This document shows, one piece after another, positions 10,387 through 28,387 of a stretch of 64,000 nt of DNA. This DNA comes from Acidisarcina sp. Its GTDB lineage: Bacteria > Acidobacteriota > Terriglobia > Terriglobales > Acidobacteriaceae. The position numbers and the translations under genes are program-made. The stretch spans positions 1-64,000 of the forward strand of contig DATLIY010000013.1 in NCBI GenBank assembly GCA_035539175.1, given 5' to 3'. Position 1 is the first letter of the stretch. Every line of letters begins with the position of its first letter. The notes below the pieces were generated by a model. That model saw nothing but the letters and a program-made list of their open reading frames with translations. It was not told the DNA's origin and ran no database searches.

Positions 10387-10430
10387 CTTGTATCAGAAAT
10401 ATGTCACTGGTTTATGTGATAACGGTCACA
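10387..10430 (-). promoter_or_regulatory. Candidate CRP/FNR-family operator with weak -10, facing feoAB
   Basis: TGTGATAACGGTCACA at 10415-10430 fits the CRP-type consensus TGTGA-N6-TCACA exactly. Reading leftwards, TACAAG (10392-10387) is a weak 4/6 match to a -10 hexamer. The operator would be centred about 42 bases before the resulting start site, as in class II activation. Activation of feo by FNR under anaerobiosis is known in E. coli; its use here is inferred. The site could instead act on the rightward gene at 10454. Confidence 0.45.
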
Positions 10431-15892: not shown

Positions 15893-16372
15893 TCAGACCT
15901 CGGCGGAGTCGTCCCGCAGTGCCTGTCGAATTGCTTGTACGGCTCGTGGGAGGGCGGAGCTTACTTCGTCGGTCAACTCCTCTGCGAGCTCAAATGATTT
16001 GCCGCCAACGGTAACTGCGATGGCACGGCGCGGGAGCGAACCGAAGAGTTCCTCCGACAGGGCCAGCAGTGCCGATGGGCTCACGTGATGGGTCAGGCTT
16101 CCGTTGGTGCCGGGCGTGGGTTCGACCGGGAACGTCGATACCTCTCCCGGCAAAGAAATCGCGGAGCAGTCTACAAAAATGACCGTATCTGCTCCGCTGA
16201 TCGTCTCTGCAAGTTCAGGCGCCAACTGCTGCGCGATTACCACTTCGACGCCCGGCAGGGAAGCATCGTTTTCCACCGCTGCGGCAATCTTCCAGCCCAC
16301 TCCATCATCGCCCCGCAGCGGATTGCCGCAGGCGAGAACCAGTTGGCGAGCCACTCTAGCGATGGATCTCAT
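15893..16372 (-). CDS. hoxW: [NiFe] hydrogenase large-subunit maturation endopeptidase
   Basis: A 159-residue protease of the HycI/HoxW (M52) family. It removes the C-terminal tail of the large subunit once the Ni-Fe site is filled. The nickel-sensing residues are in place: GNPLRGDDGVGW (acidic residue in the first strand), VDCSA (second Asp) and HHVSP (His). I place the start at ATG 16372 because the family begins just before LVLACGNPL; the frame is open to 16426. It overlaps hoxH by 17 bases and is the last gene of the operon. Its substrate tail is visible in HoxH. Confidence 0.88.
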   Translation of the reverse strand: MRSIARVARQLVLACGNPLRGDDGVGWKIAAAVENDASLPGVEVVIAQQLAPELAETISGADTVIFVDCSAISLPGEVSTFPVEPTPGTNGSLTHHVSPSALLALSEELFGSLPRRAIAVTVGGKSFELAEELTDEVSSALPRAVQAIRQALRDDSAEV

Positions 16373-17777
16373 CGAGCCGCGAACCATCTGGCGCGACCAG
16401 TTCAATCGAGAGCGGCATCTGGCCAAAGGCGTGGGTCGAGCAACTCAGGCAGGGATCGAAGGTGCGGATCACTGCTTCTACCCGGTTCAGCATGCCTTGT
16501 TCCAGCTTCTTGCCGCTGATGTACTTCTGCGCGGTTTGAAGAACTCCCCGATTCATCGCGTTGTTATTCTGGCCTGTCGCGATAATGAGATTGGCATAGA
16601 GCATCTGCCCCTTATCGTCTACCTTGTAGTGATGCATCAAGGTGCCGCGTGGAGCTTCCGCGACTCCGAAGCCTTCCAGGCGATTGACCCCGGCGGTTGC
16701 TCGCACATGCTTGTCCAGGATGAGCGGATCGCTAAGGATACGCTCAATCATTTCGATGCCGTAGAGGATATCGATGAGGCGAGCGTAGTGGTAGTGGAAG
16801 GAACCAAGCACCGGCCCCTTCGCCAGTTGCTTGAACTCGACTAGCTCCTGGTCCGCAAGCGGCGTTCCCATGTGGCTGGCGATGTTCAGCCGGGCCAGGG
16901 GGCCGACACGATAACTTCCCTGCGGGTAGCCGAGAGGTTTGTAGTATGGAAACTTCATGTAGGAGAAAGGCTCGACTGCCTCGCCGAAATTCTCTTCGAA
17001 GTGCGCGGCTTCTATCCCGTCCTTCAGAATATTTCCCTCGGCGTCGATCAGCCGCAGCGCGCCATCGGTGAACTCGATGCTGTCGTCTTCGTTGACCAGA
17101 CCCAGAAAGAGGGAAGGGAAGTTCGCGAATGAGTCGATCTCGCTCTTGAAGTTCGGGTAGATCTGCTTATACCAGTGCAGAGCATACTTGATGTTGGCGT
17201 AAGCCTCCGGAATCATCGCCAGGATCTCATCGCGCTTGGCGCTGGCGAGCGGCTCGGTTACGCCGCCAGGAATCACCCACCCAGGATGGATGCGCTTGTT
17301 TCCGAGCAGCTCAATGATGTGCTGCCCAAAGCGGCGCAGACGAACGCCTCCGCGGCCCAGTTCCGGCTTTGCCTGCACTACGCCGAACAGGTGGCGTACG
17401 GCGGGATCGGCATCCATGCCCAGCAGCAGATCGGGCGAGGAGAGGTAAAAGAAGCTCAGCGCATGCGACTGTACCATCTGGGCCAGGTTCAGCATGCGGC
17501 GCAGTTGTGCTGCGGTATGCGGAATCTCCACCGACATAATGGCTTCGCAGGCCTTTGCAGAGGCGACCAGATGGCTGACAGGGCAGATACCGCAGATGCG
17601 CGCCATCAGGCTCGGCATCTCGTAGAATGGACGTCCCTCGCAGAACTTCTCAAAACCGCGCACCTGGGTGACAGTAAAGAAGGCCTCCTGCACAGCGCCG
17701 TTGTCGTCGGTCTTCAGCGTGATCTTGCCGTGACCTTCGAGGCGTGTTACGGGATCAATCGTAATCGTTTGCGACAT
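16356..17777 (-). CDS. hoxH: HoxH, large subunit of bidirectional NAD-linked [NiFe] hydrogenase
   Basis: A 473-residue catalytic subunit. The two nickel-binding motifs are intact: RICGIC near residue 60 and DPCLSC near 441. After the histidine at about 449 a 24-residue tail starting AFGQMPLS remains in the gene product; this is the peptide removed by the protease. With HoxEFUY upstream this is a group 3d enzyme, which couples H2 and NAD(H) in the cytoplasm. It starts 11 bases after hoxY. Confidence 0.95.
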
Positions 17778-17788
17778 CGTGATCTCTC

Positions 17789-18322
17789 CTACGCACCAAA
17801 GCGGGTTAGGCTGGCAATGTCCGGCGTCTTGCCGGCCAGCAATTCACTCAAAACTGTGTAGAAGGTATCCGCGGAGGGTGGGCATCCCGGCAGAAAGACG
17901 TCGACAGGCACAAACTCATGCACTGGGCGCACCTTCGCGAGCAGCTTGGGAACGAGTTGGCAGGGAACCTGCTGTTGCAGGCTGGCAGTCTCGAAAAAGG
18001 CTCGGTCGGTAATGTTCTCAACCCCGAACTGATTCCTCATCGAAGGAACATTCCCCGCGACCGCACAATCCCCCATGGCGATCAGCATTTTGGTGTGCTT
18101 GCGGATGTGGCGGATCTTGTGCTCATCTTCCACGCTGCTGATTGCGCCTTCTACCAGAGCGATATCCACTTCGTCCGGAAAGACCTTGAAGTCCACGATC
18201 GGACTAAATACGAGGTCGAATTTGCTGCTCAACTCGATAAGGCGCTCGTCCATATCCAGAAAGGACATGTGGCATCCAGAGCAGCCATCCAGCCAGACCG
18301 TTGCTAGTTTGATTTTGCTCAT
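17789..18322 (-). CDS. hoxY: HoxY, small subunit of NAD-linked [NiFe] hydrogenase
   Basis: A 177-residue subunit carrying the proximal Fe-S cluster. The ligands are visible: WLDGCSGCH near residue 10, GDCAV near 85 and LPGCPPSAD near 144. It has no Tat signal and no C-terminal anchor, as expected for a short cytoplasmic group 3 small subunit. It overlaps hoxU by 4 bases. Confidence 0.95.
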
Positions 18323-19032
18323 CGTCCTTCTCTCATCACGTTCAGGTTTATCAGGAAGTCAGGATATTTCGGATGATCGGTTCCCACCTTGCTCTTGTCG
18401 AAGAGCGCTCCGGTCGGACATACCTGGACGCACTTGCCGCAGCGGGTGCAGGTAGAAGAACCCCATGGCTCGTGGAGATCCGTGATAACGATGGAGTCGA
18501 TTCCGCGGCCCATGACATCCCACACATGAGCGCCTTCAATCTCCGCGCATGCGCGTACACAGCGGGAGCACAGGATGCAGCGATTGTGATCGGCGACAAA
18601 CCGCTCGTGCGAAGCATCGATCGGCAGAACGGGATTGCGATACGGCAGCCGCACATGCGTCACACCCTGCGACTGGGCCACTGCCTGCAATTCGCAATGC
18701 CCATTGGCAACGCAAACAGAGCAGATGTGGTTGCGCTCCGCGAATAGCATCTCCAGAATCGTGCGGCGGTATTTCTTCAGCTTTTCGGAGTTGGTGGTGA
18801 TCTCCATCCCCTCATCTACGGTGGCCACACAGGCAGGAAGAAGCTTGTTGACTCCCTTGATTTCGACCAGGCAGAGGCGGCAGGCGCCAACGTCGCTCAG
18901 GCCATCCAGGTGGCATAGCGTGGGGATGGGAATGTTGTTCTCTCGCGCCACTTCCAGAATGGTCTGGCCGGCACGGGCACTCACGTCCTGCCCATCGATA
19001 ACCAGTGTTTTTACGTCAACGGCAGCACTCAT
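18319..19032 (-). CDS. hoxU: HoxU, Fe-S diaphorase subunit
   Basis: A 237-residue electron-transfer subunit resembling the N-terminus of NuoG. The [2Fe-2S] domain contains [11 protein letters not shown] His/Cys region around residues 100-115 ([12 protein letters not shown]) follows. Two [4Fe-4S] motifs, [11 protein letters not shown] near 145 and [12 protein letters not shown] near 190, complete it. It links HoxF to the hydrogenase dimer. It overlaps hoxF and hoxY by 4 bases each, so the operon is tightly coupled. Confidence 0.93.
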
Positions 19033-20684
19033 GCTCTCACCTCCTCAGCCGCGGCGGACATGTTGCATACGCCGGCGGTACAGCGCTTGTGCTCGATATG
19101 ATCGATGTACTCATTCTTGAAGTAACGAAGAGTGCTGAGCACAGGGTTGGGAGCAGTCATACCCAGACCGCATAGACTCGTGTCCTTGATGACTCCGCAG
19201 AGATCCACCAGCAGGTCCAGGTCATCGTACGTGCCTTCGCCGTTGCAGATCTTGGTCAGCAGCCCATACATCTGAGCAGTTCCGGCGCGGCAGGGAATGC
19301 ACTTTCCGCAGGATTCCGTCATGCAGAACTCTACGAAGAAGCGGGCTACGTTCACCATGCACGAGGTGTCGTCCATGACGATCATGCCGCCGGAGCCCAT
19401 CATGGACCCCACGCTGATCAGCGATTCGTAGCTAACGGCGAGGTCGAGATGTTCTTCGGGAATGCAGCCGCCGGATGGTCCTCCGGTCTGCACGGCTTTG
19501 AACTTATGTCCATCGGGAACGCCGCCACCGATTCCATAGATGATCTGACGCAGCGTCATTCCCATCGGCACTTCCACCAGCCCGGTGTTGGTGATCTTTC
19601 CAGTGAGTGCGAAGACCTTGGTCCCCTTGCTCTTTTCCGTACCCATCTGTGCAAACCACTCGCCGCCATTGCGAATGATCGGAGGGATGTTGGCAAAGGT
19701 CTCGACGTTATTGATGAGGGTCGGCTTGCCGAACAAACCGGAAACCGCGGGATAGGGAGGACGGGGTTTTGGAGTTCCGCGTTTGCCCTCGATGGAGGCG
19801 ATCAAAGCCGTCTCCTCCCCGCAGACAAAGGCTCCCGCACCGAGCCTGATCTCAATATCAAAATCGAAGTCAGTGCCGCAGATGTTGTTGCCGAGCAGGC
19901 CGCGACGGCGCGCATCGCGAAGAGCAGAGGTGAGGCGGCTGACGGCGAGCGGATACTCAGCGCGTACATAAAAGAAGCCGCGGCTTGCACCTACCGCGTA
20001 TGCAGCGATCGTCATGCCTTCGATCACACGCTGCGGATCGCTCTCCAGAACACTGCGATCCATAAACGCGCCAGGGTCACCTTCATCGCCATTGCAGATG
20101 ACGTACTTGGGTTCGCCGACTGCCTTGGCAACCGTGCCCCACTTCAGGCCCGTGGGATAACCACCACCGCCACGTCCCTTCAATCCGCTCTTGGAGATCT
20201 GGTCGATGACAGAAGCCGGCGTCATCTCGGTGAGCGCCTTCAGCAGACCCTGATATCCTTCACGGCCGATGTAGTCGTCGATCTTTTCCGGGTCAATGCG
20301 GCCGGAGTTCTCCAGCACCACGTGAACCTGATCGTCGAAGTGCGCCCTGAGGTCACAATGCAACTCCGGGATCGCCGCCTGGCCCACGCTGTCGACAACG
20401 CGCCCGGCATCCTCGACCGTCACGCCCTTGTAGAGAACCTCCGTTGGTTCGATCAGAACCAGGGGACCAGCCGCGCACAACCCCATGCAGCCTGTTCTGC
20501 GTACAAAAACTTTCTTGCCGGATGCTGCCGCAGCTTTCGAAATCTCTTCTTTGATCTTGTCGCTGTGCTGAGACAGGCAGCCCGTGCCCATACACACGTT
20601 GACTTCGTAATCGAATTTTTGCCGCTCTTGATTTACGCCGTCGGCAATCTGTTCCAGTTCTTGGAGGTCCATCAGGCTTGCCAC
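19029..20684 (-). CDS. hoxF: HoxF, NAD(H)- and FMN-binding diaphorase subunit
   Basis: A 551-residue NuoF-like subunit. An N-terminal thioredoxin-like [2Fe-2S] domain has CMGTGC near residue 32 and CMGLCAAGP near 67. The NADH/FMN domain has [13 protein letters not shown] and [12 protein letters not shown]. The C-terminal [4Fe-4S] site is [12 protein letters not shown]. It exchanges electrons between NAD(H) and the Fe-S chain to the hydrogenase. It overlaps hoxE by 13 bases. Confidence 0.95.
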
Positions 20685-21166
20685 CTTTCAAACTGCTCCA
20701 CCATGCCGGCGCCATCGAGATGAGCCACCAGTTCTCCATCGATGAGTACCACCGGTGCGCGGCCGCAGGCGCCGACACAACGCGCCGTCATCAGGGCAAT
20801 CTTGCCGTCCTTGGTGGTTTCTCCCTGCTTGATGTTCAGGAATTTTTCGCTTGCGGCAATCAGCTTGTCGGCACCCTTGATGTAGCAGGCGGTTCCGGTG
20901 CAAACCGTGCAGGTATGTTCCGCGGGTGGCTTCAGGCTGAAGTGGTGATAGAACGTGACCACTCCATATGCCTGGCTCAACGGTACGCGAAGCGACTTCG
21001 CAACGAATCGGATGGAATCATCGTCCAGAAATCCAAAGGAAGACTGAACTGTGTGAAGTGTCTCGATCAGTGCCGAACGCGCATAGCCGTGGCGGCGCAT
21101 AGTTCCATTCACGATCTTCCATCGTTTGTCTTCGGATGGCAGAGGCGGCATTTGATAAGCTGGCAC
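20672..21166 (-). CDS. hoxE: HoxE, [2Fe-2S] diaphorase subunit
   Basis: A 164-residue NuoE-like subunit and first gene of the hox operon. The thioredoxin-fold [2Fe-2S] ligands are CTGTAC near residue 90 and CVGACGRAP near 130. A helical N-terminal part contains YGVVTFYHHFSLKP, typical of NuoE/HoxE. HoxE is found in cyanobacterial-type pentameric enzymes and may add a second electron entry. An upstream palindrome and -10 hexamer (21323-21366) look like its promoter. Confidence 0.93.
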   Translation of the reverse strand: MPAYQMPPLPSEDKRWKIVNGTMRRHGYARSALIETLHTVQSSFGFLDDDSIRFVAKSLRVPLSQAYGVVTFYHHFSLKPPAEHTCTVCTGTACYIKGADKLIAASEKFLNIKQGETTKDGKIALMTARCVGACGRAPVVLIDGELVAHLDGAGMVEQFERWQA

Positions 21167-21322: not shown

Positions 21323-21366
21323 TTTATAGTGCTGGAGGTGGAGAAGTAGCAGTGACAGCCGTCACG
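21323..21366 (-). promoter_or_regulatory. Predicted hox operon promoter with CRP/FNR-type operator
   Basis: In the 322-base gap before hoxE, read leftwards, AGTGACAGCCGTCACG (21351-21366; core GTGA-N6-TCAC) is followed by TATAAA (21328-21323). A start site near 21316 would place the operator centre at about -42.5, close to the -41.5 of class II activators, with no -35 box needed. The rest of the gap holds no gene. The regulator is inferred. Confidence 0.55.
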
Positions 21367-21488: not shown

Positions 21489-22232
21489 TCATCCCAGTGC
21501 GGGGAGCCTGGCCGAAGAGCCAGCCAGAAAAATTGCGCCAAGTGCAACGCTGTAAATTGCTCCAGCCCAGGCCACTCCGCGACACAGCTTCGGACGATGG
21601 GAACTCGCGCCGAATAGTCCGCCCAGGGAAGCCGTCATCAAGGTATTCATCGCGATCAGGCCCAGGGTAAAGGCAGCCAGGCCCATGAATCCCCGGGAGG
21701 TACCGCCCAGCGATGCGGTCAGCAGAAAGAGCATCAACTGGCTTGGAGTCTCTGCGCCAAGTCCATGCAGAACCCCGATTCCGAAGGCCGAGCCACCGTT
21801 GTAATTCCATGAAAACGGGTCAGGCCGAGGGGTTTGCGGTTGGAAGAGCAGCTTGGCTCTCCACCAGAGCCAATTGATTCCCGAGATCAAAACAGCCAGG
21901 CGGCTTTGCACCCGCGAGTGCGTATGGTCATGCTTTGCAAGACTGGCAACTACGCCGATCCCCAGCACGATCAGCGTGATCCCGATTAACTTCTCCGTCC
22001 AGGAGTCCAGTTTCTCAGGGAGCGGAATGTGCAGCATAATGACCGCTGCGCCCAGCATAGCCACAGTCAACGCATGGCCCAGCGCGTACGTTACCCCCAG
22101 GCGCATGCCGCGCTTCCAGGAGTGTTGCACCGCTGTAATGTCGGAGATGGCCGCAAGATGATCGTAATCAAAGCCGTGCCGCAGGCCGAGGAGCGCACAG
22201 GAGACCAATGCCAGTTCGAGTTGCCAGTTCAT
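21489..22232 (-). CDS. NiCoT-family nickel/cobalt permease
   Basis: A 247-residue membrane protein with six to seven hydrophobic segments. The first helix carries the NiCoT metal motif RHGFDYDHLAA (HX4DH), and a later helix has HGLGAETPSQ. NiCoT permeases import Ni2+ or Co2+ with high affinity. Placement between the hox and hyp operons points to nickel for the hydrogenase. AGGAG lies before ATG 22232. There is no His-rich loop beyond HDHTHSR near residue 101. Confidence 0.88.
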   Translation of the reverse strand: MNWQLELALVSCALLGLRHGFDYDHLAAISDITAVQHSWKRGMRLGVTYALGHALTVAMLGAAVIMLHIPLPEKLDSWTEKLIGITLIVLGIGVVASLAKHDHTHSRVQSRLAVLISGINWLWWRAKLLFQPQTPRPDPFSWNYNGGSAFGIGVLHGLGAETPSQLMLFLLTASLGGTSRGFMGLAAFTLGLIAMNTLMTASLGGLFGASSHRPKLCRGVAWAGAIYSVALGAIFLAGSSARLPALG

Positions 22233-22299: not shown

Positions 22300-22317
22300 T
22301 GTCACGCTTTTGTGACA
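22300..22317. promoter_or_regulatory. Palindrome in nickel permease-hyp divergent region
   Basis: TGTCAC-N6-GTGACA is a perfect inverted repeat about 70 bases upstream of the nickel permease start. The half-sites face the opposite way from the GTGA-N6-TCAC operators nearby, so another regulator may bind. It does not match the NikR consensus. Confidence 0.35.
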
Positions 22318-22377: not shown

Positions 22378-22420
22378 AGTGATCTTGATCACAAGAGGGC
22401 CAGTAGTCCAGGGCTAAAAT
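22378..22420 (+). promoter_or_regulatory. Predicted hyp operon promoter with CRP/FNR-type operator
   Basis: AGTGATCTTGATCACA (22378-22393) contains the perfect palindrome GTGATCTTGATCAC. It fits both GTGA-N6-TCAC and, apart from the outer bases, the FNR half-site TGAT-N4-ATCA. TAAAAT at 22415-22420 is a 5/6 -10 match. A start site near 22427 puts the operator centre at -41.5, the classic class II position. The remaining ~130-base leader to hypC has further small inverted repeats, for example GGTCTAGACC at 22437-22446. Confidence 0.6.
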
Positions 22421-22555
22421 GACAGCAACATCCGCTGGTCTAGACCCAGGTCTGCTAATCCGTTCGAGGGCGATTCGGGGCAATCCGGGGCTGTTGAACG
22501 ATGGATCTCCGGCCCCGCACTGGGGATCCGGCAACGATAGGGAGAGAGGTTTCCC

Positions 22556-22852
22556 ATGTGTCTTGCGATTCCCGGTAAGCTCGTCGAAAAGCGCGAAGTA
22601 GACGGCATTCTCACAGGAAAAGTGAAATTTGGCGGAATTACCCGCGAGGCCTGCATGGATTTTCTGCCGGAGGCCGAAGTAGGCGACTATGTGCTCGTCC
22701 ACGTCGGCTTCGCCATCAGCAGAATCGATGAGGAAGAGGCTCACAAAACCTACGAATATTTGCAGAAAACAGGCATGGTTGACGAAGAACTATCTGCGAT
22801 GCGTGAATCCTCCGCTTCAGAAGAATCTCGCGCCGTGGAGGTGAAGCCATGA
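22556..22852 (+). CDS. hypC: HypC, [NiFe] hydrogenase maturation chaperone
   Basis: A 98-residue protein that starts MCLAIPGKLV. The Cys2 is essential and carries the Fe(CN)2CO precursor together with HypD. The beta-barrel core (VKFGGITREACMDFLPEA, VGDYVLVHVGFAISRID) is typical. The C-terminal ~20 residues are an extra Ser/Glu-rich tail. It is the first gene of the hyp operon and overlaps hypD by 4 bases. Confidence 0.95.
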   Translation: MCLAIPGKLVEKREVDGILTGKVKFGGITREACMDFLPEAEVGDYVLVHVGFAISRIDEEEAHKTYEYLQKTGMVDEELSAMRESSASEESRAVEVKP

Positions 22853-23967
22853 AGTATATCGACGAGTACCGCGACGAGAAAGTGGCACGCGCCCTGCTGG
22901 CAAACCTGCAGCGGATTGCCACGCGAGACTGGGTACTGATGGAGGTGTGCGGCGGCCAGACGCATACGCTGATGCGTTATGGCATCGACGAATTGTTGCC
23001 CAGGAATATGCAGATGGTTCACGGGCCGGGTTGCCCGGTGTGCGTCACTCCGCTGGAGACGATCGACAAGGCGGTGGCCCTGGCGGAGCGGCCTGAGGTC
23101 ATTCTGGTTTCCTACGGCGACATGCTGCGGGTGCCGGGATCGGCCACGGATCTGCTCCACGTAAAGGCGCGCGGCGGGGATGTCCGGATGGCATATTCTC
23201 CGCTGGAAAGCCTGAAGATCGCACGCGAGAACCCTACGCGGGAGGTCGTCTTCTTTGGCATTGGATTTGAGACCACGGCTCCGCCGAATGCAGCCGCAGT
23301 ATGGCAGGCGCAACGCATGGGGCTGAAGAACTTTTCCTTGCTGGCTTCGCATGTTCTGGTTCCTCCCGCAGTGCGGACGCTGATGTCGTCCCCAAAGAAC
23401 CGTGTGCAGGGGCTGATTGCTCCAGGGCACGTCTGCGCCATCGTGGGAACGGAGGATTACAAATCGCTGGCGAGCGAATTTCACATTCCGATTGTGGTTG
23501 GAGGATTTGAGCCGGTAGACCTGCTGGAAGCGATCGTCATGTTGACGGCGCAGTTGGAAGAAGGCCGCGCGGAGGTGGAGATCCAATACACCAGGTCGGT
23601 CACCGCTCCTGGCAATTTGCGCGCGCAGCAGATTGTTGCGGACGTATTTGAGGTGTGCGACCAGAAGTGGCGTGGCCTGGGCCCGGTGCCGAAGAGTGGG
23701 TTGAGAATGCGCGAGGGATACCGGGCCTTCGACGCAGAGGCGAGGTTTGATCTTCACGGCATCTCAGTGGATGAACCTACCGAATGCATCAGCGCAGAGA
23801 TCTTGCAGGGTTTGAAGCGTCCCACCGATTGTCCGGCCTTTGCCGGGCGCTGTAAGCCAGAGGCGCCGCTTGGGGCACCGATGGTCTCCGCAGAAGGCGC
23901 GTGTGCTGCCTACTACCACTATCGCCGTCATGAGTCGGCATCGCTGGTTTCGATTGGGGGAAACTGA
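22849..23967 (+). CDS. hypD: HypD, Fe-S scaffold for Fe(CN)2CO assembly
   Basis: A 372-residue protein with conserved blocks CGGQTHTLMRYGID near residue 25, HGPGCPVCVTP near 59 and GFETTAPPNA near 140. The C-terminal cluster ligands lie around CPAFAGRC and EGACAAYY. It works with HypC to build the iron site of the hydrogenase. Its stop overlaps the hypE start by one base. Confidence 0.95.
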   Translation: MKYIDEYRDEKVARALLANLQRIATRDWVLMEVCGGQTHTLMRYGIDELLPRNMQMVHGPGCPVCVTPLETIDKAVALAERPEVILVSYGDMLRVPGSATDLLHVKARGGDVRMAYSPLESLKIARENPTREVVFFGIGFETTAPPNAAAVWQAQRMGLKNFSLLASHVLVPPAVRTLMSSPKNRVQGLIAPGHVCAIVGTEDYKSLASEFHIPIVVGGFEPVDLLEAIVMLTAQLEEGRAEVEIQYTRSVTAPGNLRAQQIVADVFEVCDQKWRGLGPVPKSGLRMREGYRAFDAEARFDLHGISVDEPTECISAEILQGLKRPTDCPAFAGRCKPEAPLGAPMVSAEGACAAYYHYRRHESASLVSIGGN

Positions 23968-25016
23968 TGACTGGCTTTCCCACACTCGACTGTGCCTTGC
24001 CGATACCCACGAACACCCACGTGGTGCTCGGCCATGGCAGCGGCGGCAGGCTCTCTGCCGATCTGATGCGCGATATCTTTCTTCCCGCGTTCGGCAACGA
24101 TGCCCTGAATCGGCTCGACGATCAGGCGTCGCTGGAGATGGTAAGCGGTCGCATCGCCTTCAGCACGGATTCCTTTGTTGTAAAGCCTCTGTTTTTTCCC
24201 GGCGGAAACATCGGGGAACTGGCCATCTATGGCACAGTAAACGATCTGGCTGTGGGTGGAGCAGAACCCAGATATCTAAGCGCCTCTTTCATCCTGGAAG
24301 AGGGCCTTCCACTGGAAACGCTCCGCGAAATTGTGAATGCGATGAGCGCAGCAGCGAAGCGCGCAGGCGTCTTAATTGTCACCGGCGACACCAAGGTCGT
24401 GGAAAAGGGAAGCGGCGATCAGGTATTCATCAATACCTCAGGCATTGGAGTTATTCCTGCGGACATCACACTCTCCGCCTCGCTGGTGGAGCCCGGCGAC
24501 CACATTCTCCTGAGCGGTCCAATCGGCGAACATGGGATCACGATCCTGTCGCAGCGTGAGGGGCTGGAGATCGACGGGGAGTTGAAGAGCGATGCAGCGC
24601 CCTTGCACACGTTGGCCCAGGCCATTCTCAAAGCGGCTCCTCACACGCGCTGCATGCGGGATCTGACACGCGGTGGGTTGTCCAGTGCGCTTAATGAAAT
24701 CTCCGCCAGCGCCAAGGTAGGCATGGAGATCCGTGAGAGTGCGATTCCGGTACTCGATACCGTCCGCGGAGCATGCGAGATCTTCGGCCTTGATCCGCTC
24801 TATGTTGCGAACGAGGGGAAACTCATCGCGATTGTGCCCGCATCGCAATCCGAAGCTGCACTTGCAGCCATGCGCGCGGTCGATATCGCAGAGCAATCCT
24901 CGGAGATTGGTGTGGTCACGGAGGCGCACGCTGGCCTGGTGACGATGCGGACCGCACTGGGCGCGATGCGTGTGGTGGATATGCTGGCGGGTGATCAGCT
25001 TCCTCGAATCTGTTGA
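23967..25016 (+). CDS. hypE: HypE, carbamoyl dehydratase making the cyanide ligands
   Basis: A 349-residue protein of the PurM/AIR synthase fold (HGSGGRLSADLM, DSFVVKPLFFPGGNIG, VTGDTKVVEKG). It ends with PRIC. The C-terminal Cys receives the carbamoyl group from HypF and is dehydrated to thiocyanate. It is 6 bases before hypA. Confidence 0.95.
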   Translation: MTGFPTLDCALPIPTNTHVVLGHGSGGRLSADLMRDIFLPAFGNDALNRLDDQASLEMVSGRIAFSTDSFVVKPLFFPGGNIGELAIYGTVNDLAVGGAEPRYLSASFILEEGLPLETLREIVNAMSAAAKRAGVLIVTGDTKVVEKGSGDQVFINTSGIGVIPADITLSASLVEPGDHILLSGPIGEHGITILSQREGLEIDGELKSDAAPLHTLAQAILKAAPHTRCMRDLTRGGLSSALNEISASAKVGMEIRESAIPVLDTVRGACEIFGLDPLYVANEGKLIAIVPASQSEAALAAMRAVDIAEQSSEIGVVTEAHAGLVTMRTALGAMRVVDMLAGDQLPRIC

Positions 25017-25022
25017 GGCACT

Positions 25023-25385
25023 ATGCATGAGCTTTCGATAGCCGAATCTATTTTGGATGCCGTCCGCAAAGAGATTGCGATGCGTCCCGGTACCATACCT
25101 GTGCGAGTGGGCGTTCGCATCGGCTCCATGGCAGCGATCGACGCGGAAGCGCTCACCTTTTGCTTCAGCGCGGTTGTGCACGGCACGGAGTGGGATGCGT
25201 TGAAGCTGGATACAAATGTCGTTCCTGCACGCCGGGTTTGTAACGACTGCGGTGACTCGTTTCTGGTAGAGGATTACAACGCCGTTTGTCCCGGCTGCGC
25301 GAGCGAAAACACTGCCGCAGATGGCGGAGACGAATTGGATCTGGAATATCTGGAGGTAGAAACAAATGGAGCGCCTGTCCCTTAA
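25023..25385 (+). CDS. hypA: HypA, nickel insertion metallochaperone
   Basis: A 120-residue protein that starts MHELSIAESI; His2 and the N-terminal amine bind nickel. Two CxxC pairs, CNDC and CPGC near residues 74-98, hold structural zinc. It delivers nickel with HypB. It overlaps hypB by 20 bases. Confidence 0.93.
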   Translation: MHELSIAESILDAVRKEIAMRPGTIPVRVGVRIGSMAAIDAEALTFCFSAVVHGTEWDALKLDTNVVPARRVCNDCGDSFLVEDYNAVCPGCASENTAADGGDELDLEYLEVETNGAPVP

Positions 25386-26052
25386 ATCAAAGGTTTTGAG
25401 TGAGAACCAGCGAATTGCCGAGTCACTACGCCAGCGCTTTCGTGAGAATGGGGTGCTCTGCCTGAATCTCATTAGCTCGCCCGGCTCAGGGAAGACGGCC
25501 CTGCTGGAGCAGACGCTTGCGCATCTCGATCCGACGACGCGAGTGGCAGTGCTTACAGGCGATATCCAGACAGATAACGATGCTCGCCGGCTTGCACGGT
25601 TTGGCTTTCCGGTGAAGCAGATTACGACGGGCGGAACATGCCACCTCGATGGAAGCATGATCGAGAGGCATCTGGCAGACTGGTCTCTAGCGGATATCGA
25701 TCTCCTGTTGATCGAGAATGTGGGCAATCTGGTTTGTCCGTCCAGCTACGATCTGGGGGAGGCATCTAAAATTGTGCTTCTCTCTGTTACAGAAGGCGAA
25801 GACAAGCCGTTAAAGTACCCTTCTATCTTCTTCAAGTCCGATTTGTTTGTCCTGACGAAAGTGGATCTGCTGCCATACGTACCTTTTAATGCGGAACTTG
25901 CCGAGGAGAATGCACGGCGTGTTCATCCCGGAATGGAGGTGGTGCGTGCCTCCGCCGTTGCACCCGGAGGACTCGACCAGTGGCTCGAGTGGTTGCGTGC
26001 GCGTATCGCTGCCGCCAAGGCATCTCCGGAACTCGCCGTCACAGGGGCCTAG
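25366..26052 (+). CDS. hypB: HypB, GTPase for nickel delivery
   Basis: A 228-residue SIMIBI GTPase with P-loop ISSPGSGKTALLE near residue 37, the TGDIQTDND switch, the metal-binding GGTCHLDGSM near 90 and the guanine motif LTKVDLLPY. It lacks the N-terminal His-rich or CxxGCxxC nickel-storage extension of some homologues, so it probably acts only in delivery. Two bases after its stop comes the proposed hypF GTG start. Confidence 0.93.
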   Translation: MERLSLKSKVLSENQRIAESLRQRFRENGVLCLNLISSPGSGKTALLEQTLAHLDPTTRVAVLTGDIQTDNDARRLARFGFPVKQITTGGTCHLDGSMIERHLADWSLADIDLLLIENVGNLVCPSSYDLGEASKIVLLSVTEGEDKPLKYPSIFFKSDLFVLTKVDLLPYVPFNAELAEENARRVHPGMEVVRASAVAPGGLDQWLEWLRARIAAAKASPELAVTGA

Positions 26053-26053
26053 C

Positions 26054-28387
26054 GTGGCACATGTCCGTCGCAGTGTCCGGGTCTCCGGAGTCGTGCAGGG
26101 CGTAGGGTTTCGGCCCTACATCTACAGGCTTGCGACGGAAGAGCGGGTTACAGGAAATATTTCGAATGACACTGCCGGAGTGACCATCGAGATTGAAGGC
26201 CCCGCCGCTCATATCGATGCATTTCTACGGCGTCTCCCGCTTGAAGCACCTCGTCTGGCGCATATTGCTCACGTTGAAGTTCAGGATGTGCCCTGCGAAG
26301 GAGACCAGCACTTTAACATACGCCCGAGTGAGGTCCGCGGCCATGTGGTGACACAGATTCCAGCCGATGCTGCGACCTGTGATGACTGTCTACGGGAATT
26401 GCTGAATGTTAGAGATCGGCGTTACCGCTACCCCTTCATTAACTGCACAAATTGCGGACCGCGTTTTACCATAACGCGTCGAATCCCTTACGACCGCCCC
26501 CAAACCTCCATGGCAAAGTTCCCCATGTGTCCCGCCTGCCAAGCGGAGTACGACGATCCATTGAACAGGCGCTTCCATGCACAACCTAATGCCTGCTGGG
26601 ATTGCGGTCCTCAACTATGGATGGTCAACGCGATGGGGCAGCGCATCGAGACGAAGGATGCGATCGAGGAGACGATTTCACGCCTGGCTGCTGGCCAGAT
26701 CGTCGCAATCAAAGGCATCGGAGGATTCCATCTTGCGGTGGATGCCACGAACACTGCGGCTGTCGAGCGATTGCGCCAGCGAAAACATCGCTACGGAAAA
26801 CCGCTGGCAGTCATGGTTCCCGACATTGCCTCGGTCGCCAAATTCTGTAAGTACGATTCGTTGCAGGAACAGCTCCTGATCAGCGTGCAGCGGCCAATTG
26901 TTCTCTTGCAAAAAAAGGTCGTCTCGCCGATCGCGGCGTCTGTGGCGCCAGGAATTCCATGGCTGGGCGTATTCCTTCCCTATGCGCCGCTCCATCATCT
27001 GCTCTTTGTGAATCAAAAACTGCAGGCGCTCGTCATGACCAGCGCGAATCTGAGCGAGGAACCGATTGCGATTGACAACGACGAAGCGCTTGACCGCCTT
27101 GACGAGATTGCGGATGCATTCCTCTTTCATGATCGGGAAATTCTGCAGCGATGCGATGACTCTGTAATGGCGGTTGTCGACGGCCAGCAACAGATCATCC
27201 GGCGAGCACGCGGATTCGTTCCGCTGCCCGTTTCTTTGCCGGTCGAGTCGCCCCCTTTGCTTGCAGTTGGCGGTCATCTTAAAAACGTCTTTTGCCTTGC
27301 CGCTGGCCATAACGCCTATCAGAGCCAGCATTTGGGCGATCTTGAAAATCTTACCGGCTTGGAATTCTTTCGTGAGGCGCTGGAGCACCTGAAGCGAACC
27401 TTTGAAATTGAGCCAGTAGCGATTGCACATGATCTGCATCCGGGCTATCTGTCGACACAATGGGCGCTGCAGCAGCCCTTGCCGCAGATCGGTGTGCAGC
27501 ATCATCACGCACACATTGCCAGTTGCATGGCAGAGCATAATCTGATGGCTCCCGTGATTGGCATCGCGCTCGATGGGACGGGCTATGGAACGGATGGTCA
27601 CGTGTGGGGAGGGGAAGTCCTGATCGCCTCTTTCGAGGGATTCGATCGATTTGCGCATCTGCGATATGTTCCTATGCCCGGCTCTGCGGCGGCGATTCGT
27701 GAGCCGTGGCGCATGGCCTTTGGCCATCTCCTCGCTGCGTTTGGGGAAGAAGTCATGGGGCCGGAGCTGCGATCCATGCTAGGAGCGACGGAGAAGGAGG
27801 CGCGGCTGCTTGCGAGAATGATCGAGCGCAAGGTGAACAGCCCGTTAACCTCAAGTTGCGGACGCCTTTTCGATGCTGCTGCTGTGCTCATCTCAGGCCG
27901 TCGCGTCGTGGACTACGAAGCACAAGCTGCAATTGAGTTGGAAGGTCTGGCGGTAGATGCAGCGGATATTCCTGCAGATGCCTACCATCTCGTCCTGGGT
28001 CCGGGCGAGAGTACGACGTGCCCCTGGCAGCTTGACCCGGCTGCCATGTGGCATTCGCTCCTTCGCGATCTGCGGGCTGGAGTAGCCCCAGGCATTATGA
28101 GTATGCGCTTCCATTCCGGAGTGGCGCAGGCTTATTGCGACCTAGCGGTCGCCGCTTGCGCTGCGACGGGCATTTTGCAGGTATGCCTTAGCGGGGGCGT
28201 TTTTCACAACGCCCTACTGCATCGCCTTCTCCGCGAGAGGCTTCAAGGTCAGGGCTTCGAGGTCTTTGCGCAGAGCCACGTTAGTCCCGGAGACGGCGGC
28301 CTGAGTTATGGCCAGGCGGCGGTGGCGGCAACACGCCTTAAGGCTGTGAGTCAATCTGTACCAGACGTTGTGACAAATATAGACTAG
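26054..28387 (+). CDS. hypF: HypF, carbamoyltransferase for cyanide ligand synthesis
   Basis: A 777-residue protein. I start it at GTG 26054, one base after the hypB stop, which places the acylphosphatase domain (VSGVVQGVGFRPYIYRL) at the N-terminus; the frame is open further upstream inside hypB. The order is acylphosphatase; two zinc-finger pairs (CDDC, CTNC, CPAC, CWDC); YrdC-like domain; Kae1-like domain with HHHAHIASC near residue 485. It makes carbamoyl-adenylate from carbamoyl phosphate and loads HypE. Its stop overlaps that of the convergent acetyltransferase gene at CTAG. Confidence 0.95.
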   Translation: MAHVRRSVRVSGVVQGVGFRPYIYRLATEERVTGNISNDTAGVTIEIEGPAAHIDAFLRRLPLEAPRLAHIAHVEVQDVPCEGDQHFNIRPSEVRGHVVTQIPADAATCDDCLRELLNVRDRRYRYPFINCTNCGPRFTITRRIPYDRPQTSMAKFPMCPACQAEYDDPLNRRFHAQPNACWDCGPQLWMVNAMGQRIETKDAIEETISRLAAGQIVAIKGIGGFHLAVDATNTAAVERLRQRKHRYGKPLAVMVPDIASVAKFCKYDSLQEQLLISVQRPIVLLQKKVVSPIAASVAPGIPWLGVFLPYAPLHHLLFVNQKLQALVMTSANLSEEPIAIDNDEALDRLDEIADAFLFHDREILQRCDDSVMAVVDGQQQIIRRARGFVPLPVSLPVESPPLLAVGGHLKNVFCLAAGHNAYQSQHLGDLENLTGLEFFREALEHLKRTFEIEPVAIAHDLHPGYLSTQWALQQPLPQIGVQHHHAHIASCMAEHNLMAPVIGIALDGTGYGTDGHVWGGEVLIASFEGFDRFAHLRYVPMPGSAAAIREPWRMAFGHLLAAFGEEVMGPELRSMLGATEKEARLLARMIERKVNSPLTSSCGRLFDAAAVLISGRRVVDYEAQAAIELEGLAVDAADIPADAYHLVLGPGESTTCPWQLDPAAMWHSLLRDLRAGVAPGIMSMRFHSGVAQAYCDLAVAACAATGILQVCLSGGVFHNALLHRLLRERLQGQGFEVFAQSHVSPGDGGLSYGQAAVAATRLKAVSQSVPDVVTNID

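Follow-up and report, generated by a model that had tools for sequence, protein, structure and literature searches.

Hydrogenase maturation genes of this acidobacterium are preceded by a short inverted repeat, and the question raised by this locus is what type of promoter the repeat belongs to, which protein reads it, and under what signal the hydrogenase would be made. These points were followed in the window, which is the whole 64,000-nucleotide stretch of DNA analysed here from contig 13 of the source genome (3.9 Mb), in the remainder of that genome, and in its relatives.

The upstream region of hypC has the layout of a class II CRP/FNR promoter

The hypC, hypD, hypE, hypA, hypB, and hypF genes are tightly packed on one strand from 22556 to 28387 (Table 1), and HypD and HypE are adjacent in relatives too. 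The 323-nt gap between hypC and the divergent NicO-like gene contains GTGATCTTGATCAC, that is, GTGATC-TT-GATCAC, an inverted repeat of the GTGA-N6-TCAC or TTGAT-N4-ATCAA type expected of a CRP/FNR class II promoter. The initial annotation had described a perfect palindrome from 22378 onwards, followed by TAAAAT. Both elements are present and the two 6-base arms are perfect, but the repeat begins at 22379 and its central TT is asymmetric, leaving 12 of 14 positions symmetric, so that the description was slightly too strong. Its placement of the palindrome centre 41.5 bases before the expected start was reproduced, as TAAAAT follows the operator by 22 nt and, with six bases between the -10 box and the start, the arithmetic puts the centre (22385.5) at -41.5 from a +1 at 22427. 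Judged from the -10 box, this is the class II placement (centre at -41.5, 22-24 nt before the -10). No -35 box was found in the hyp promoter; CAAGAG, which occupies the position at 17 nt spacing, has 0/6 matches to TTGACA, and any spacing of 15-19 nt gives at most 2/6.

The known systems closest to this arrangement are the class II CRP and FNR promoters of E. coli, where the site is also centred at -41.5 and overlaps the place of the -35 box (PMC5957442), and the hypBFCDEX operon of Rhizobium leguminosarum, which has an FnrN-type promoter used in low oxygen (PMC3534401). In R. leguminosarum too, hydrogenase maturation genes are expressed from an FNR-type promoter, as is proposed here, whereas the present operon belongs to an acidobacterium, its half-site is GTGAY and not the TTGAT of FNR, and the structural hox operon has a copy of its own. 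Thus, both an FNR-type hyp promoter and the -41.5 class II placement are already known, and the new element is the acidobacterial case.

Table 1. Positions of the genes, predicted promoter elements, and proposed reader discussed in the text (window coordinates unless a genome contig is given).
Feature	Position	Strand	Basis or remark
hoxE, hoxF, hoxU, hoxY, hoxH, hoxW: Hox-type NAD-linked [NiFe] hydrogenase and protease	15893..21166	-	Pfam, NCBIfam
TATAAA, proposed -10 box of hoxE promoter	21323..21328	-	23 nt after operator
GTGACGGCTGTCAC, hyp-like operator upstream of hoxE	21352..21365	-	conserved in 29/32 acidobacterial hoxE loci
NicO-like gene (putative nickel transport), divergent from hypC	21489..22232	-	matches below curated cut-offs
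GTGATCTTGATCAC, proposed CRP/FNR-family operator of hyp promoter	22379..22392	+	centred at -41.5; conserved in L031-L034
TAAAAT, proposed -10 box of hyp promoter	22415..22420	+	22 nt after operator; no -35 box
Predicted hyp transcript start	22427	+	from -10 box position
hypC, first gene of operon	22556..22852	+	Pfam HupF_HypC, E = 4e-26
hypD	22849-23967	+	ORF and translation; name read from sequence
hypE	23967-25016	+	ORF and translation; name read from sequence
hypA	25023-25385	+	ORF and translation; name read from sequence
hypB	25366-26052	+	ORF and translation; name read from sequence
hypF	frame open from 25889, stop 28387	+	ORF and translation; name read from sequence
Proposed reader, FNR-like protein	G000:C9:95754-96581		helix SRETVTR; CxxC-x8-C and a fourth Cys

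The hox operon carries a putative second copy, and both copies are conserved in relatives

The structural hox operon, which lies on the opposite strand, was found to have its own predicted copy of the hyp-type switch with the same geometry (Table 1), which the initial annotation had missed. A third site in the window, GTGATAACGGTCAC at 10416-10429 upstream of a small ORF, has TAAAAT only 10 nt further on, a distance that would be more compatible with a repressor site than with class II activation.

The hoxE site was compared across 80 HoxH loci from other species; the nearest HoxH relatives in named records are from Acidobacteriaceae and other Acidobacteria. A GTGAN6TCAC sequence was present upstream of hoxE in 29 of 32 acidobacterial loci and in 0 of 33 others, nearly all of which belong to different phyla (Fisher 2e-15, not corrected for kinship). 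In 21 of 28 hoxE regions (27 relatives with GTGAY-N4-RTCAC plus the window), a -10 box follows at 22-23 nt. Furthermore, the identity between species was 93% in the arms of the site, 33% in its centre, and 34% in the spacer. The position and arms are therefore kept while the intervening sequence can vary, which is the pattern to be expected if an activator has to face RNA polymerase.

The hyp site and its spacing were retained in the four hox-linked relatives, in which hyp is linked to hox or NicO. These promoters read GTGATCTGGATCAC-22-TAGAAT (L031), GTGACTTGCGTCAC-22-TAAACT (L032), GTGATTCGCGTCAC-23-TAGACT (L033), and GTGACCTGTGTCAC-22-TAACAT (L034). The initial annotation had stated that its reading would be refuted if close relatives retained the operon but had lost the palindrome; these four loci retain both. 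In hyp operons unlinked to hox, the site is often missing. A chance palindrome beside a chance TAAAAT also had to be considered, since a single site taken alone is weak and the whole window would contain 0.74 GTGAN6TCAC by chance; only 0.007 are expected in the 323-nt hypC intergenic region, however, the hyp site and spacing are kept in relatives, and the hoxE geometry is kept while its spacer drifts. The chance reading is effectively refuted by this conservation, and we consider it hardly credible.

On the side of the hyp operator that faces the NicO-like gene, no hexamer at the class II distance made a convincing -10 box. The idea that the promoter works in both directions and serves nicO as well was considered on account of AATACT at 23 nt on the minus strand and was rejected, as this hexamer has no counterpart in L031 or L032. 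Near the NicO-like gene, an inverted repeat TGTCAC-N6-GTGACA at 22300-22317 is followed by a T-rich stretch, and its half-sites are oriented opposite to those of the hyp site. This repeat was set aside as a component of the system, as no counterpart was found ahead of hypC in L031-L034.

The hyp site belongs to a genome-wide set with a preferred distance to the -10 box

In the source genome, GTGAN6TCAC occurs 86 times and its reversed control 36 times, while the stricter GTGATN4ATCAC occurs 13 times and its control not once. We sampled 53 GTGAN6TCAC sites, 27 of the form GTGAY-N4-RTCAC and 26 of other forms; the sample takes in all 13 GTGATN4ATCAC by design, and the 27:26 split is no estimate of frequency. 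The sampled GTGAY-N4-RTCAC sites were non-coding in 26 of 27 cases versus 10 of 26 for the others. When TANNNT was scored downstream of the 27 sites in both orientations, a peak was observed at 22, 23, and 24 nt (4, 4, and 3 hexamers), which is 11 against 1.8 expected from a background of 0.6 per position (Poisson probability about 4e-6 for 22-24 nt and 8e-5 for 20-24 nt). A scan of GTGA-N6-TCAC relative to the -10 box had been proposed as a check on the hyp promoter, and on these 27 sites the outcome was in its favour. The arrangement of site and -10 box at 22-24 nt was seen before, among others, hypC, rex, adhE, nuoA, ccmC-like, ccsA-like, ferredoxin, and cytochrome c genes; rex, hypC, and the hox genes were tested with profiles, and the other names were read from translations. 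The hyp site thus appears to be one of dozens of such sites in the genome, a set that the initial annotation had missed.

The presence of the motif before rex itself initially made Rex, an NADH/NAD+-sensing redox repressor with the operator TTGTGAAN4TTCACAA, attractive as the reader, which would then repress hyp and hox. The Rex operator has the GTGA-N6-TCAC skeleton in common with the present sites and the kinds of targets overlap (rex, adhE, nuo); Rex is encoded in the source genome (NCBIfam, E = 4e-85), and the motif precedes both rex and adhE, as is common for Rex targets. The hyp site, however, has T at position 5 and lacks the flanking TT/AA of TTGTGAA-N4-TTCACAA. The fifth base in the non-coding class of sites is T or C and never the A of the Rex consensus, and the sampled GTGAA-N4-TTCAC sites resemble coding chance matches. 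A repressor such as Rex would not be expected to keep a constant, activator-like distance of 22-24 nt from the -10 box. Moreover, Rex was found in only 1 of 150 family genomes and is absent from the same-genus relative G019 and from G002, G081, and G130, all of which keep the hyp site. Since relatives with the site lack Rex, it was discarded as the conserved reader, and we regard its operator function here as very improbable.

An FNR-like protein is the preferred candidate reader

Only three CRP/FNR proteins above the HTH_Crp_2 cut-off are encoded in the genome, and all three have the R-E----R recognition helix, with which CRP reads GTGA, so that proteins able to read such sites are available. 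The preferred candidate, C9:95754, combines FNR-like cysteines with a CRP-like helix and lacks the cAMP motif, which sets it apart from both CRP and FNR of E. coli. In FNR, four cysteines hold a [4Fe-4S] cluster; C9:95754 has CxxC-x8-C and a fourth cysteine that aligns three residues away from FNR C122. This fourth cysteine is kept in the closest orthologs, although it is missing from several more distant homologs. Its recognition helix is SRETVTR rather than the FNR-type E--SR, and it scored 61.7 bits against the curated Fnr model, the cut-off of which is 228. Because it falls so far below this cut-off, we propose that the protein may work like FNR and do not claim that it is FNR.

The distribution of the three proteins in relatives distinguishes between them. 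Orthologs of C9:95754 with 73-89% identity occur in G019, G002, G081, and G130, and it is the only one of the three with orthologs in all four of these hyp-site keepers. The main reader could instead be C9:491465 (helix TRETITR) or C3:155314 (helix VRELVSR), in which case the signal might be something other than oxygen. The R-E----R helix is present in both, and every ortholog of C9:491465 that was inspected has GTGA palindromes upstream of its own gene; this protein may therefore have a part in the regulon. Orthologs of C9:491465 are missing, however, from G002, G081, G121, and G130, and those of C3:155314 from G081 and G130, whereas G002, G081, and G130 all retain the hyp site (genome completeness 97% for G130 and 84% for G081 and G002). 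As with Rex, this absence from relatives that keep the hyp site eliminates both as the conserved reader, and a role for either as main reader seems rather unlikely.

A catabolite switch of the cAMP-CRP type was also weighed, as a single central base separates the hyp site from GTGATCTAGATCAC, the core of the E. coli CRP consensus. Yet all three proteins are far under the curated CRP cut-off, and the Arg-Ser of the cAMP pocket is present in 0 of 3, C9:95754 included. As these pocket residues are missing from every CRP/FNR protein of the genome, cAMP is an unlikely signal, which weakens the nucleotide option offered in the initial annotation; control of hyp by such a switch was dropped and is judged highly doubtful.

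The C9:95754 protein was then considered across the family. Over 150 family genomes, the motif occurs 6637 times versus 1098 for the control, a six-fold excess. Each genome has between 0 and 14 homologs of C9:95754, and palindrome density follows their number, the motif excess per Mb correlating with homolog number (rho 0.67, 150 genomes, not corrected for kinship) and rising from 5-6 sites per Mb with 0-1 homologs to 16.5 with 7 or more. Some excess remains in genomes without any match to C9:95754, which implies that other CRP/FNR proteins read similar sites, and several CRP/FNR paralogs may share them.

These results together support the class II CRP/FNR reading of the initial annotation, through the spacing peak, the site kept in relatives, the three R-E----R proteins, and the absence of Rex from relatives that keep the site. 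We consider it very likely that 22379-22420 is a CRP/FNR class II promoter, and hold nearly as firmly that this promoter type and control by a member of the family apply jointly. That the reader is the C9:95754 protein with oxygen as its signal is proposed with moderate confidence.

Proposed mechanism and the wider regulon

In the mechanism that we propose, a CRP/FNR-family dimer would bind GTGAT-N4-ATCAC at -41.5, in the place left by the absent -35 box, and would contact RNA polymerase so that hypCDEABF transcription starts near 22427. The second operator copy, with the same geometry, would drive hoxEFUYHW. The most likely reader, the C9:95754 protein, would be active at low oxygen, so that an FNR-like sensor of low oxygen probably reads the hyp and hox switch. 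Four parts of this scheme are inferred from sequence, namely that the protein activates and does not repress, where transcription starts, that an iron-sulphur cluster is present, and that oxygen is the signal.

Further genes outside the window bear the motif. The rex gene (G000:C7:1298957-1299637; L016, L028), which only the source genome among the 150 possesses, lies near an adhE-like gene, and each of the two has GTGAY-RTCAC upstream with a -10 at 22 nt; rex has the appearance of an acquired redox repressor gene placed under the control of the resident activator. The C9:491465 gene (L005) encodes a CxxC-x8-C protein and adjoins a universal stress protein gene. At least one GTGA-N6-TCAC was found upstream in 6 of 6 copies looked at among this gene and its orthologs (L211-L216), which suggests autoregulation or a cascade.

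Acidobacteriota are abundant in soils and peat, and a limited search of the open-access literature found no described FNR-type regulon for them. On somewhat better than even grounds, we suggest that the sites form a family-wide acidobacterial regulon with dozens of GTGAY-N4-RTCAC per genome, many in class II position. Its readers would be an expanded CRP/FNR set (up to 14 homologs per genome) with an FNR-like N-terminal CxxC-x8-C and a CRP-like helix, and its targets hydrogenase, complex I, cytochrome c, and fermentation genes and, in the source species, the rex that relatives lack. A guess about one site would thereby become a testable regulon, and the motif with its fixed -10 spacing would provide a means of finding the rest of the response. 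Since the genes for the Hox hydrogenase and those for its maturation have this activator geometry in common, it allows a prediction of the times at which these bacteria produce or consume hydrogen; in the present acidobacterium, hydrogen metabolism is likely switched on under oxygen shortage.
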